Positions 35,697 through 41,158 of a DNA stretch of 64,000 nucleotides are shown one piece after another. This DNA comes from Brevibacterium paucivorans (GTDB taxonomy: Bacteria; Actinomycetota; Actinomycetes; Actinomycetales; Brevibacteriaceae), in the NCBI RefSeq assembly GCF_016907735.1, contig NZ_JAFBCP010000001.1:2046001-2110000 (forward strand), given 5' to 3'. Within the stretch, counting starts at the first letter, position 1, and the number at the start of each line of letters is the position of its first letter. Below the pieces are notes generated by a model. The model saw only the letters and a program-made list of their open reading frames with translations, did no database searches and was not told where the DNA came from. The translations under genes and the position numbers were made by a program.

Positions 35697-36098
35697 ATGG
35701 CGCTGTCGGAACACGAACAGCAACTTCTTGACCAGCTGGAAAAGCAGTTGCGCAATGAAGATCCGCGATTTGCGCAAAACATTTCACAAACCCACAGCCC
35801 TGCAGGTATCGCACTTTCTCCTAAGCACCTGGTTACTGGCACGCTCGTGCTGGTCGTTGGTTTAGCTATCGCGCTCGGCTCGGTGTTCTTCTTGACATCG
35901 CCTCTGTCCATCGTGGGTGGAGTGCTCGGGTTCTTCCTCATGGTGGGAGGCGCCTACTACGGTTTCGCAGCAGCGTCTGCATCAAAGCCCGCGGGATCCG
36001 GTTCTAAAGCTCAGAGCTCGGCAAACAAGCCAAACAAGAACAGTGGTTTCATGAACCGTGTCGAAGAACGCTGGGACAAGCGTCGCGGTTCGCTCTAG
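35697..36098 (+). CDS. DUF3040 membrane protein
   Basis: 133 residues. The start MALSEHEQQLLDQLEKQLRNEDPRF is the signature of the actinobacterial DUF3040 family; two membrane helices follow (about 46-66 and 70-90) and a basic C-terminal tail. The function is unknown; the gene is usually found near mraZ and the moxR genes, as here. ATG 35697 is six bases after TGGGGGA; GTG 35694 is an alternative. It is convergent with the transglutaminase gene. Confidence 0.85.
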   Translation: MALSEHEQQLLDQLEKQLRNEDPRFAQNISQTHSPAGIALSPKHLVTGTLVLVVGLAIALGSVFFLTSPLSIVGGVLGFFLMVGGAYYGFAAASASKPAGSGSKAQSSANKPNKNSGFMNRVEERWDKRRGSL

Positions 36099-36116: not shown

Positions 36117-38246
36117 TTATTTTTTCTTCCACAGACTCCGGGGCCACAGGGTGGCTTTCACGCGCCCAAACGCTGAACCAGCCCGGTCTTTCTTCACGTC
36201 TTTGACCAGCCCACGAGCGTCGATATCGAGGGACTCCGAGCCCGTTCCCGCGTAGTGCTCACGCTCCAAGGTGCCGACCAGTTTCGCAATGTCGTCCGCG
36301 TGGTCGGGGTACTGCTCCGACAGATCGCGGCCGCGCTTGGCAAGCGTATCCGACGCCGGGGCAGCGTAACCGCAATCCACCTCGGTCGCCCGGATTTCTT
36401 CCCACACCAGGTTGGCGTTCAACGGGGTGCGCAGTCGCCGGCTGCGGGCCCGCGCACGCAACAACAGCGGTAGCAAGGCCAGGATGACCAGCGCAAACAC
36501 GGCCGCTCCCACAATGAACGGAACCGCCGAGGTCGTCTCCGACTCCTCTTCCTGAGCTGGCTCTTCCTCTGGGGTAGGCGTGGGTTCGGCGGCTTCTTCC
36601 TCTGGCGCCGGCTCCTCTGAGGGCTCCTGGGTAGGTTCTTCCGGTTCCTCAGGGGCCTCGCCGCCTTCGACCGACCACGGTGGTGGGGGACCGGCAGGGC
36701 CACCTGGGGTGGGTTCGAACCGCACCCAACCGGCGCCTTCGAAGTACAGTTCGGGCCACGCGTGAGACCGCTGCATAGTCACGTCATATCCGCCCGCGTC
36801 GTTGGGCTCACCAGCAGTGAACCCAACCCCAATGCGCGCCGGAATACCTTCCATGCGCGCCATCGTGGCCATTGCGGCCGAGAATTGAACACAGTATCCA
36901 CGACGGTCTTTGAGGAACTGCGACAGCACACTTCCCGACGCCTCATTGGGAGCATCGAGCGAGTACTCAAAGTCGCGGAAGTGCGCCTGCAACTTCGCGG
37001 CTTTGTCCCAGTCGGTTTTGGCGTCTTTGGTGATTGCGTCGGCTTCTTCTTTAATGTCGCTAGGCAGATCGTTTGGCAGCTTCAGATACTGCTCGAACGC
37101 GCCCTCATTCACAGGAGGAGCCTTCTTCAACTGTTCAGCCGTGGGTTCAACCGACCGGTATGTGAGCGAGTAGTTCAGCCCTTCAACTCCCACGTTGTTG
37201 CCCACGATCGTGAGGGTGTCACGGTCATAGACCCACCGGTCGCCCAGGCCCGAGGTCTCAAGCGGGGCGTACTGAGCCGGCAAGTGATTGCCACCCAGCC
37301 CTTTGATCGTAAAGGTGCTGGTGTAGGAGTTGGCTTCAATGTCTGGCCCGAGGTCGCCCACCGGTAGTCCTGCGTCAGGCGAGGCACCGCGTTTAAAAGA
37401 GAAGGCGGCTGGTGCCCACTTCTTGCCGTCGAATTCGGACACGGACGTGAGTCGTACGGGTGGTTCCAGCGGGTCAGTTGATTCGTATGAGAAGACGACG
37501 TCGTCACTCTTGTTGGTCAGATTCGCCCGCAGGTCAAGGAACGGGTTGATGACTTTGACATCCTGGTCTTCTCCCGCCGGCTTGTTCGCTTGAGGAACGA
37601 TGGGAGGCATGAGGAGAGGTAGGCCGATCCCCAAGATGAGCGCAAGGGCTCCAGCGGTGACAGCCCACAAGAAACCTCGCGACGCTCCTGTGTGCGCGGT
37701 GAGCAAAAGCAAAATGAAGGCAACGGCAACGGAACATGTGTGCCACCACTGGATTGACGAGGCTGCAATGAATACGGGAATGAGCCACGTGGCAAGAACC
37801 AGAGCGCCTGCGATGTGGGTTAAGTGCAGGTCATGGACCAGGCTGTCGACCAACATGGTCAAGAGCGCAAAAGATACTGTGGCGAGAACGGTGAGGCCGG
37901 CCGTTGACGGGGCCGGGGCGGGAGCCGCATACACGTCTCGGAAACCTTGTGCGATCGACCCCGCGAGCTCAGAAAAGCTACTTCCTGTGGGGATCACACC
38001 AGCGACAGTGGTTTCAGGCAGTGTAACTGCGATGACCGCAAAGAACCCCACCACGAACTGCACGATCACGGTAAGGCCCGTGTTACGCGCGGTTTCAGAC
38101 AAACGCGACAGCCACCCTGTGGCCACCGTGAGGAAGACCACCGCAACGGTGGGTACGAACCAGTTCCAGTCGCTAAAGACGGCCGAGGTCGCCACAACTG
38201 ACAGAACCATGGCGACAAATACTGTGAGAGTCGAGATTATGCGCAT
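36117..38246 (-). CDS. Transglutaminase-like membrane protein (TgpA type)
   Basis: 709 residues. Six or so N-terminal membrane helices are followed by an extracellular transglutaminase-like domain with the catalytic cysteine in RRGYCVQFSAAMATMAR and histidine in SHAWPELYF. A long E/P-rich linker and a last membrane helix (VPFIVGAAVFALVILALLPLLL) precede a basic cytoplasmic tail. The activity is probably protease or amide-transfer on wall-linked proteins or peptides, but the substrate is unknown. ATG 38246 overlaps the DUF58 gene by ten bases. It is the third gene of the moxR operon. Confidence 0.88.
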   Translation of the reverse strand: MRIISTLTVFVAMVLSVVATSAVFSDWNWFVPTVAVVFLTVATGWLSRLSETARNTGLTVIVQFVVGFFAVIAVTLPETTVAGVIPTGSSFSELAGSIAQGFRDVYAAPAPAPSTAGLTVLATVSFALLTMLVDSLVHDLHLTHIAGALVLATWLIPVFIAASSIQWWHTCSVAVAFILLLLTAHTGASRGFLWAVTAGALALILGIGLPLLMPPIVPQANKPAGEDQDVKVINPFLDLRANLTNKSDDVVFSYESTDPLEPPVRLTSVSEFDGKKWAPAAFSFKRGASPDAGLPVGDLGPDIEANSYTSTFTIKGLGGNHLPAQYAPLETSGLGDRWVYDRDTLTIVGNNVGVEGLNYSLTYRSVEPTAEQLKKAPPVNEGAFEQYLKLPNDLPSDIKEEADAITKDAKTDWDKAAKLQAHFRDFEYSLDAPNEASGSVLSQFLKDRRGYCVQFSAAMATMARMEGIPARIGVGFTAGEPNDAGGYDVTMQRSHAWPELYFEGAGWVRFEPTPGGPAGPPPPWSVEGGEAPEEPEEPTQEPSEEPAPEEEAAEPTPTPEEEPAQEEESETTSAVPFIVGAAVFALVILALLPLLLRARARSRRLRTPLNANLVWEEIRATEVDCGYAAPASDTLAKRGRDLSEQYPDHADDIAKLVGTLEREHYAGTGSESLDIDARGLVKDVKKDRAGSAFGRVKATLWPRSLWKKK

Positions 38247-39379
38247 GACACACCTCGCAGGCTCCACTGAGAAGGAAGGTTCACATCTCCACCGAACATG
38301 CCTGTGAAGTTCATATCGTCAATGGTTTCGCTATCGATGTCCGAGGCGTACCAGCGATGCGTGCGGACGCGCTGGCCACCGGTGATCCGGGGGACGTGAT
38401 CGGGATCAGGTGCGCAGACAACAAGTTCTGACAATGCGCGCATTTCCCGAGCAGAAGGCATGCGTGCGGGTGCAGCATGTGCCCGGGCTGCCAAAACATC
38501 GACCGACAAATTGCGTTCTCTGGGTTCAGCTTGAACCGAATGTTCGCCCATGACGACACGGACCGAAAAACCGGACTGCGTGAGAGCGTGAACAGCGCTC
38601 ATGGCCGCAGCCACCAGCAAGTCGAATTCGACGGGGTGTGAAATGCCTTCACCGTGAACGATCACAGCCGCTACCGGGTTGTCTTCATCGGCTTCTTGCC
38701 TGACAACCAGCTGACCGGTGCGCGCCACAGTCTTCCAGTGTATGTGTCGCAAATCGTCGCCTGGCGCGTATTCGCGTGTATAGAAATCGCGGGTGGAGGT
38801 TCCACGCGACAAACGTTCTGTTTCCGCAAGCGGGTTTGGTCGCCCACTCAAACCTGGGCTAGCCAACTGAACTCGCGGGGGAGCGACCGCAATCTTGAGA
38901 CCCTGGGACACTTTCTTCTTAAACATCGTCAGCCTAAACGGGCCATTCACCGCCACCGTGACAGCTGAAATCCCTCGGAGACCTCGGGCCGATGGAGTGA
39001 ACGTCGCATCCACCTCGACGGTCCCGCCGCCCGCGACCGAAGGAACCTGCACCCCCTGGGGGAAGCCGAACCCGTTTTCCGGCTCAACCTCCAGGTAGAA
39101 CGACCCGCTACGAAACGGAAGCGCGTTCGTCACACTGACACGTACATCGGTGTCTGTGCCCACGTACGTGAGGGGGTATCCGCTCACATGGGGCGCAAAC
39201 GCCCGGAGCTTTACCTTCATGCGGGTGCTGGTCACGAGGGCGAAGATGAGTGAAAAAACCGTGAGGAAGACCAGCAAAATGCCCACTGGTAGCAGTGCCG
39301 GAAGCTGAAAACGGTACGCGGCAATGCACAGGCTCACGCCTGCAATCAAGAAAACAATGCCAGAGGTGGTAACGCGCAT
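38237..39379 (-). CDS. DUF58 domain protein
   Basis: 380 residues. Two N-terminal membrane helices (about 5-45) precede a beta-rich domain and the DUF58 signature (GDDLRHIHWKTVARTGQLVVRQ), the core of a von Willebrand A-like fold without obvious metal site. MoxR-DUF58-TgpA triplets are thought to act as chaperone and membrane-effector systems in envelope stress. ATG 39379 overlaps the moxR stop (TAATG). Confidence 0.88.
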   Translation of the reverse strand: MRVTTSGIVFLIAGVSLCIAAYRFQLPALLPVGILLVFLTVFSLIFALVTSTRMKVKLRAFAPHVSGYPLTYVGTDTDVRVSVTNALPFRSGSFYLEVEPENGFGFPQGVQVPSVAGGGTVEVDATFTPSARGLRGISAVTVAVNGPFRLTMFKKKVSQGLKIAVAPPRVQLASPGLSGRPNPLAETERLSRGTSTRDFYTREYAPGDDLRHIHWKTVARTGQLVVRQEADEDNPVAAVIVHGEGISHPVEFDLLVAAAMSAVHALTQSGFSVRVVMGEHSVQAEPRERNLSVDVLAARAHAAPARMPSAREMRALSELVVCAPDPDHVPRITGGQRVRTHRWYASDIDSETIDDMNFTGMFGGDVNLPSQWSLRGVSCA

Positions 39380-40329
39380 TAGGAAACCGGGGTTGCGGCC
39401 ACCACGTCACGGATCAGCTGGGAGGTGTGTTCTGGGTGGTCGCTTTCAACAGCGATAATGCGGTGGGCCAAAACCTCCTGAGCCAAGTCCTGTACATCGT
39501 CAGGAGTGACGTAGTTGCGTCCATTGAGGACCGCGTGAGCCTGGGCTGCGCGCAAGAGGAGGACGCCACCACGTGGGGAAACACCCACGGAAATTGCGTC
39601 GTGAGAACGTGTCGCCGTCAACAAGCGAACCATGTAGTTACGTAGCTCGGCTGTGGCGGTGACATTTGTGACGGCCACACGGGCACGTTCGATCTCTTCC
39701 AATGTTGTAACGGGGCTCAGTTCGTCTAACGGGTCGCGCCCGGTGTTGTGCGCCAACATTTGGGCTTCCGACTCAACCGACGGATAGCCCACCGACGTGC
39801 GGATCATGAAACGGTCGCGCTGAGCCTCCGGAAGACTGTACGTGCCTTCCATATCAATGGGGTTCTGAGTTGCCACCACAATGAACGGCTGTGGCATGAG
39901 ATACGTGGTCCCGTCGACACTGGCCTGACCTTCGGCCATGCACTCCAGCATCGCTGACTGGGTCTTGGGGGAAGCGCGGTTAATTTCGTCGGCAATCACG
40001 ACATTGGAAAAAACAGGTCCCGCACGGAACTCAAAATGGCGAGTTTCCTGATTAAACAGGTTCACACCCACAACGTCCGTGGGCAGAAGGTCAGGTGTGA
40101 ACTGGATACGACGGACTGAACCGTCGACGACGCGACCCAGCGCTTTAGCGAGAAGGGTTTTACCTACGCCAGGGACGTCTTCGAGGAGAAGGTGTCCGCC
40201 TGCCAGAAGAGTAATCAAGCTCAGCTCAACAACACGATCTTTGCCATCGAGGACCGTGTTCATGGAGTTGCGGGCGCGCGCTGCGAGTTCAGCGATGGAT
40301 GCGATTTCTGCCTCTGTGGGTGTGCTCAT
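39379..40329 (-). CDS. MoxR family AAA+ ATPase
   Basis: 316 residues. Walker A is in DVPGVGKTLLAKAL, Walker B in VVIADEINRA, followed by sensor and MoxR-specific SLPEAQRDRF. These ATPases remodel or activate VWA/DUF58 partners. ATG 40329 is used: the open frame continues 141 codons upstream but only through the intergenic MraZ-box region. The three tandem boxes at 40362-40421 begin 33 bases before its start, so MraZ could control this operon directly. Confidence 0.92.
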   Translation of the reverse strand: MSTPTEAEIASIAELAARARNSMNTVLDGKDRVVELSLITLLAGGHLLLEDVPGVGKTLLAKALGRVVDGSVRRIQFTPDLLPTDVVGVNLFNQETRHFEFRAGPVFSNVVIADEINRASPKTQSAMLECMAEGQASVDGTTYLMPQPFIVVATQNPIDMEGTYSLPEAQRDRFMIRTSVGYPSVESEAQMLAHNTGRDPLDELSPVTTLEEIERARVAVTNVTATAELRNYMVRLLTATRSHDAISVGVSPRGGVLLLRAAQAHAVLNGRNYVTPDDVQDLAQEVLAHRIIAVESDHPEHTSQLIRDVVAATPVS

Positions 40330-40361: not shown

Positions 40362-40421
40362 CCACTTCACTCCACACAGCCACCCCACTTTGCCCCACTG
40401 AACACCTCCACTTTCCTCCCC
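40362..40421 (-). promoter_or_regulatory. Three tandem MraZ-box-like repeats in front of moxR
   Basis: On the plus strand CCACTTCACTCCAC (40362-40375), CCACTTTGCCCCAC (40385-40398) and CCACTTTCCTCCCC (40408-40421) repeat every 23 bases. Within each, the two CCAC-like halves are ten bases apart (CCCC in the third). Read on the minus strand they are GTGG-N6-GTGG with AAAGTGG, matching the type of repeat MraZ proteins bind. Confidence 0.7.
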
Positions 40422-40499
40422 TCGGTGTGTAAACGCCGAAGATCCGGGCGAAAAACATGGCTTTGACCCCTGAAAACGACACAACGCTGAAAATTTCTC

Positions 40500-40513
40500 C
40501 CACTTTCCTCCAC
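40500..40513 (-). promoter_or_regulatory. Single MraZ-box-like repeat, reverse orientation
   Basis: CCACTTTCCTCCAC on the plus strand, minus-strand reading GTGGAGGAAAGTGG. It starts 92 bases (four times 23) from the third tandem copy at 40408. Confidence 0.65.
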
Positions 40514-40572
40514 CTATTTGACCTGCAGTTATATATGTTATCAGGGAGTAGAAGGCCGAAAAAGTGTATTTG

Positions 40573-40596
40573 GTGGGGGAAAGTGGAGTACAGTGG
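40573..40596 (+). promoter_or_regulatory. Triple GTGG MraZ operator before mraZ
   Basis: GTGG occurs at 40573, 40583 and 40593, exactly ten bases apart, in GTGGGGGAAAGTGG followed by AGTACAGTGG. This spacing and the position 43-66 bases before the mraZ ATG match the autoregulatory operator of MraZ in other bacteria. Confidence 0.8.
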
Positions 40597-40638
40597 TCTT
40601 TGTCGGAGCTCGTGGAGTTTCGAAAGGGGTGAGATGAC

Positions 40639-41070
40639 ATGTTCTTGGGCACGCATATGCAGCGGCTCGACGACAAAGGTCGCCTCATCCTGCCCGCAAA
40701 GTTCCGGGAGGAACTGGCCGGTGGACTCGTTGTAACTCGCGGTCAAGAACACTGCCTCACCCTGTTTTCAGCCCGAGAGTTCGAAACGGTTCACGAAAAA
40801 CTGCGGACCGCCCCCATGACCAGTAAGGACGCTCGCGACTACCTGCGTGTGTTCCTCTCTGGAGCTTCGGCAGAACAACCCGACAAACAAGGACGCATCA
40901 CAATCCCGCAGATTCTTCGCAAATATGCGGGACTCGAGCGCGAGCTCGCGGTGATCGGCCTGGGAAATCGCGTTGAAATCTGGGATGCCCACACATGGGA
41001 GTCCTACTTGAACGAAACCGAACAAGGATTCGCGGATCGTACCGACGAGGTCATCCAGGGAGTCTTCTGA
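40639..41070 (+). CDS. mraZ: Transcriptional regulator MraZ
   Basis: 143 residues. Two tandem SpoVT/AbrB-like halves each show the DxxGR signature: [14 protein letters not shown] (about 11-24) and [15 protein letters not shown] (about 83-97). MraZ forms a ring-shaped oligomer and binds the repeats in front of the dcw cluster, generally repressing it. ATG 40639 follows AAAGGGG. It opens the cluster and is separated from rsmH by 154 bases containing a 33-base direct repeat. Confidence 0.95.
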
Positions 41071-41113: not shown

Positions 41114-41158
41114 CACTTCCCCGGTTCCAAAGCCCTAGTCCTGACACACTTCCCCGGT
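41114..41158 (+). repeat. Two direct repeats in the mraZ-rsmH gap
   Basis: CACTTCCCCGGT occurs at 41114-41125 and 41147-41158, a period of 33 bases, inside the 154-base untranslated gap. The surrounding bases are also partly alike (TCCAAAGCCCT and GCCAGGGCC). They do not match the GTGG boxes upstream. Confidence 0.55.

Follow-up and report, generated by a model that had tools for sequence, protein, structure and literature searches.

The 309 bp between the start codons of moxR (40329, minus strand) and mraZ (40639, plus strand), a gap length that agrees with the original prediction, probably contain two oppositely oriented MraZ operators that share a face of the helix, so placed that MraZ bound at both would close a loop around the promoter of the dcw cluster. 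An array of three to four repeats on the plus strand and an inverted box upstream of it are both conserved, and the spacing between them is in helical phase across many families. This phased operator pair is a more surprising result than the link to moxR that the orientation of the boxes had first suggested.

The window, by which we mean the whole 64-kb stretch of DNA analyzed, belongs to a genome of 2.41 Mb in one contig. Its mraZ (40639..41070, plus strand; Pfam PF02381, E 3.2e-40) encodes an ordinary MraZ of 143 aa, which matches the solved MraZ chains 1n0e, 9qlr, 9qlg and 9sx6 and is 99% identical to MraZ of B. mcbrellneri ATCC 49030, the nearest named relatives being Brevibacterium. On the other side of the gap, moxR (39379..40329, minus; AAA ATPase, PF07726, E 2.2e-61) is directly followed by the gene for a DUF58 protein (38237..39379, minus; PF01882, E 3.6e-07) and, third in the row, by that for a TgpA-type transglutaminase-like protein (36117..38267, minus; PF11992 and PF01841); a gene for a DUF3040 protein lies at 35697-36098 (PF11239, E 2.1e-19). 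A promoter scan of the gap returned no sigma-70-like site. Between mraZ and rsmH, the sequence CACTTCCCCGGT occurs twice, at 41114-41125 and 41147-41158, 33 bp apart, with 0.01 expected in the window.

The plus array (40573..40596), found by motif search and by conservation, starts 66 bp before mraZ and has three GTGG repeats with a period of 10 bp, at 40573, 40583 and, as originally noted, 40593. It is composed of an exact GTGG-N3-AAAGTGG box (40573-40586) and a one-mismatch box (40583-40596) that includes the third GTGG; the consensus of relatives shows a fourth, weaker repeat at the same 10-bp step, and the window has TCGG at 40603-40606. On the minus strand, an exact inverted box on the mraZ side (40500..40513; motif search and genus conservation) has its left edge 83 bp away from the GTGGAGTA point at 40583, which corresponds to 7.9 turns of 10.5 bp, and 73 bp from the left edge of the exact box at 40573. 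Motif search located three more minus boxes on the moxR side at a spacing of 23 bp, one of them exact (40385..40398) and two MraZ-like with one mismatch (40362..40375 and 40408..40421). The cluster of five copies first described is real, although it consists of three exact and two near copies and not of five identical ones. The exact box was observed three times in the 64 kb, against 0.06 expected, and 0 of 100 shuffles reached this count. Direct repeats with a GTG core and a 10-bp period thus precede mraZ, as in MraZ operators, and the assignment of the boxes to the MraZ type agrees with the sites described in the consulted parts of published reports (GTG core, 7-nt repeats, 3-nt spacers; PMC8475190, PMC5282649, PMC7761207).

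The boxes are not in excess in the genome as a whole: the exact pattern occurs four times (1 + 3) versus five (2 + 3) for the pattern written backwards and, among the matches listed, GTGGNNNRAAGTGG with one mismatch gave at least 60 + 80 matches versus at least 85 + 97 backwards. Both exact boxes inspected outside the gap (466362 and 1151941) are within reading frames, and a wider MraZ regulon in this genome is unsupported. Likewise, a search of the genus for double boxes away from mraZ gave nine matches in 8 of 57 genomes, all of which adjoin mraZ by their coordinates. The meaning of the boxes is confined to the cluster in the gap.

In what follows, "genus" denotes Brevibacterium and "order" the actinobacterial Micrococcales. 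All 57 genus genomes searched have mraZ, and a divergent moxR was present in each of the 54 with a long enough contig, three loci whose sequence ends within 360 bp being excluded. Plus and minus boxes with at most one mismatch occur in all 54 of these moxR loci, where 15 shuffles per locus predict 0.0 and 0.4 such loci, respectively; in this comparison of the gap across relatives, a check of the kind originally proposed, the minus boxes are conserved far beyond chance. In 56 of the 57 genomes, 83-84 bp separate the nearest minus box from the GTGGRGTA point of the plus array (188 bp in L059), whereas anything from 184 to 698 bp lies between this box and the first aligned moxR codon across the genus, L059 excepted. 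This constancy on one side and variation on the other indicate that the nearest minus box belongs to the mraZ side, and for the box at 40500-40513 the original description as facing moxR is not supported.

Outside the genus, we used loci from 68 of the 106 order genomes with MraZ, representing 17 families (the 28 best-scoring loci plus 40 picked by hand for spread of families and genera) and, outside the order, 28 loci among 51 class genomes with MraZ, having dropped one that belongs to the same order; three named relatives were kept out of the statistics, and the box counts and the results derived from them cover at most the last 500 bp of each gap ahead of mraZ. An MraZ match was absent in 4 of 119 order genomes, three from family f14 and one from f4; each f14 assembly is split into about 500 contigs or more, and assembly gaps are thus a possible cause. 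A divergent moxR adjoins mraZ in 37 of the 68 order loci, and the upstream neighbor in 29 of the other 31 is a DUF3040 gene pointing at mraZ. Plus boxes were present in 37/37 loci with moxR and 27/29 with DUF3040, and minus boxes in 29/37 and 19/29, respectively, as well as in 1/2 others; shuffles expect fewer than 0.5 loci with a minus box in each group (genus, moxR, DUF3040). At one mismatch, 8/37 and 10/29 of these loci had no minus box, and outside the order it was found in 4 of the 28 loci and was absent from 24.

The distance between the plus point and the minus box nearest to it takes values such as 84, 85, 97, 106, 118, 189 and 200 bp and, at longer range, 210, 223, 231, 242, 253, 264, 275 and 284 bp. 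A scan of periods from 9 to 12 bp, restricted like the other phase tests on these loci to those with a GTGGRGTA point, peaked at 10.50 bp. For the 51 loci of the order and class, the Rayleigh R was 0.771, a value reached by 0 of 4000 random sets. At 10.5 bp, R was 0.743 on 42 distinct family/distance values, 0.694 with one locus per family (n = 18) and 0.721 when only the 29 distances above 120 bp were used, and phasing was seen in loci that lack moxR (n = 19, R 0.778) as well as in those that have it (n = 23, R 0.716). Permuted partners matched the observed phasing in 0 of 20000 trials. In a control set of 47 distinct genus/distance values, the minus box was phased to the plus point (R 0.757); no phasing to the start codon was found for either the minus box (R 0.152) or the plus point (R 0.149). 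Gain and loss of 10-bp repeats was considered as a source of the periodicity and rejected, because R falls to 0.22 at a period of 10.0, versus 0.74 at 10.5, on distinct family/distance values; the contrast against period 10 is weaker for distances above 120 bp (0.48 versus 0.72). These data are best accounted for by two oppositely oriented MraZ operators that have to lie on one face of the DNA, as they would for a loop.

The distances were known before this discovery test was designed, and new genomes, many from families or genera already seen, served as a check, for which R above 0.5 and a phase near 1 bp had been predicted in writing beforehand. Pattern searches of 396 order genomes, counting only those new to the analysis (G223 onward) and keeping the double hits of three genomes, gave 113 matches by pattern alone, irrespective of whether mraZ adjoins them, with R 0.623 and phase 0.73. 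From the short to the long distance window, 55/56, 33/40 and 10/17 matches were within a quarter turn of the expected phase, where chance gives one half; the last of these, at 245-305 bp, shows no phasing (R 0.126, not significant). The pooled new data have their optimum at a period of 11.30 (R 0.630), slightly above the value at 10.5. Apart from the longest distances among the new genomes (245-305 bp), we therefore find what a loop pair should have, namely two sites for the same protein in helical phase. Related genomes are not independent in these statistics, and common ancestry accounts in part for the 84-85 bp cluster. In one genus, however, six genomes have 74-75 bp, one turn below the 84-87 bp that the same search gave for the other genera in their family, and several clusters one turn apart, these included, are not what descent alone would be expected to give.

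The minus boxes had originally been taken to place the moxR-DUF58-transglutaminase operon under MraZ, on the grounds that most of them face moxR. The conservation of the boxes agrees with this proposal, as does the divergent moxR beside mraZ in every testable genus genome and in over half of the order loci. However, minus boxes are about equally common with and without a divergent moxR in the order (p = 0.28), so that their presence does not depend on it, and in the 11 values available they show no phase relation to the moxR frame (R 0.225). Furthermore, 27 of 30 genomes without an adjacent moxR have moxR-like genes elsewhere (101 matches), and none of 29 distinct loci (30 were fetched, two of them identical), which may be paralogues, has a box within 500 bp upstream; in this sample the box does not follow moxR-like genes that lie elsewhere. 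With the nearest box locked to mraZ, and with boxes present where no divergent moxR exists, orientation need not mean facing moxR and would be explained at least as well by the control region of mraZ itself. We consider control of the moxR operon doubtful, although the extra boxes nearer moxR leave room for it and are the only route by which it would be possible. Among the loci compared, gaps with at least three minus boxes were confined to the genus, with 34/54 Brevibacterium gaps versus 0/37 (moxR) and 0/29 (DUF3040) order gaps. They could also be a drifting tandem repeat without a regulatory role, which we likewise regard as a less than probable explanation. Their number and place vary, with one to five minus boxes per gap, they are unphased to the plus array in the genus (R 0.15 for distinct distances and 0.29 when all are counted), and in B. 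daeguense a 23-bp tandem repeat that contains the CTCCAC core runs to 4.8 copies in the moxR-side part of the region ahead of mraZ (L139, 3117-3226), suggesting that the cluster may expand as a minisatellite. Against mere drift, at least two minus boxes with up to one mismatch are kept in 47/54 genomes, which also speaks for a role at moxR.

The inverted box might also work without a loop, if MraZ bound there touched a second factor, or RNA polymerase itself, only from the right face of the helix, and this would yield phasing too. A candidate for a second site exists in the TGACCTG element beside the minus box (TGACCTGCAG, 40519..40528, plus strand; found by conservation), which precedes the GTGGAGTA point by 64 bp. 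Of 91 non-genus loci, 46 have TGACCTG or TGACCAG between 40 and 120 bp ahead of the plus point; the distance is 64-66 bp in 37 of these and 75-77 bp, a turn more, in five. The element is possibly the operator of another regulator. Phasing in the discovery set, however, extends to about 280 bp, which is far for direct contact, and we judge this explanation unlikely. That another GTGG-recognizing protein binds the sites is very improbable, given that the plus array has the form and position of MraZ sites in the consulted parts of published reports (PMC5282649, PMC7761207) and that the core is common to both boxes.

We thus favor the MraZ loop, in which the gap would be the control region of the dcw cluster and MraZ, a ring-shaped oligomer, would occupy the plus array together with the inverted box. 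The short loop closed in this manner would contain or overlap the mraZ promoter and lead to autoregulation of mraZ and the dcw genes, probably as repression; a loop of 73 bp needs bending or wrapping of the DNA. In many related bacteria, the helix-following spacing suggests a promoter folded by MraZ and not a mere reach to moxR. The moxR-side boxes of Brevibacterium would be further MraZ sites, perhaps acting on the divergent moxR promoter, and this is the weakest step of the model. The broader proposal, that MraZ is a DNA-looping protein throughout the order, with operators in register from 7 to about 27 turns apart and a box cluster in Brevibacterium that extends the complex to moxR, has in our estimation somewhat less than an even chance. 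To our knowledge, the control of division genes by the MraZ ring is little understood in actinobacteria, and a phased operator pair would tie the architecture of this ring to the way in which the entire cluster of division and cell-wall genes is regulated. Such a pair also corrects a natural yet misleading reading, in which the orientation of a box is a pointer to the regulated gene.

According to the consulted parts of the literature, repeats before mraZ are bound by MraZ, probably as an octameric ring; the cluster is thereby repressed in E. coli, and in B. cenocepacia it is regulated in this way (PMC8475190, PMC5282649, PMC7761207). Mollicutes have (AAAGTGKN3)3 as the operator upstream of mraZ, whereas that of B. 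cenocepacia is made up of four repeats of 7 nt separated by 3-nt spacers (PMC8475190, PMC5282649, PMC7761207); the latter lies downstream of the -10 box and overlaps the transcription start (PMC7761207); MraZ binds the repeats as an octamer (PMC5282649, PMC7761207). The array described here shares with these three systems the direct GTG-core repeats with a 10-bp period before mraZ, and differs in having a second, inverted and helically phased operator upstream, of which the same parts make no mention. In Dietzia, MtrA is reported to control mraZ (PMC9602371, consulted in part), which is similar in that an actinobacterial mraZ is regulated by a promoter-binding protein, and different in the regulator. 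In C. glutamicum, ciprofloxacin lowers the transcript level of mraZ and raises that of the MoxR-like cg1980, according to the part of the report consulted (PMC5055667); cg1980 is not adjacent to mraZ by gene number, and this response thus has no direct bearing on the moxR-mraZ gap. Among the titles and abstract openings listed, with few subscription journals covered, none describes a DNA loop formed by MraZ or MraZ control of moxR. The repression loops of lac, gal and ara have two operators for one oligomer, with a spacing that follows the helical repeat. The loop proposed here resembles them in its operator pair for one oligomer and in its helix-following spacing, and departs from them in that the regulator is MraZ and the operators are repeat arrays of opposite orientation.
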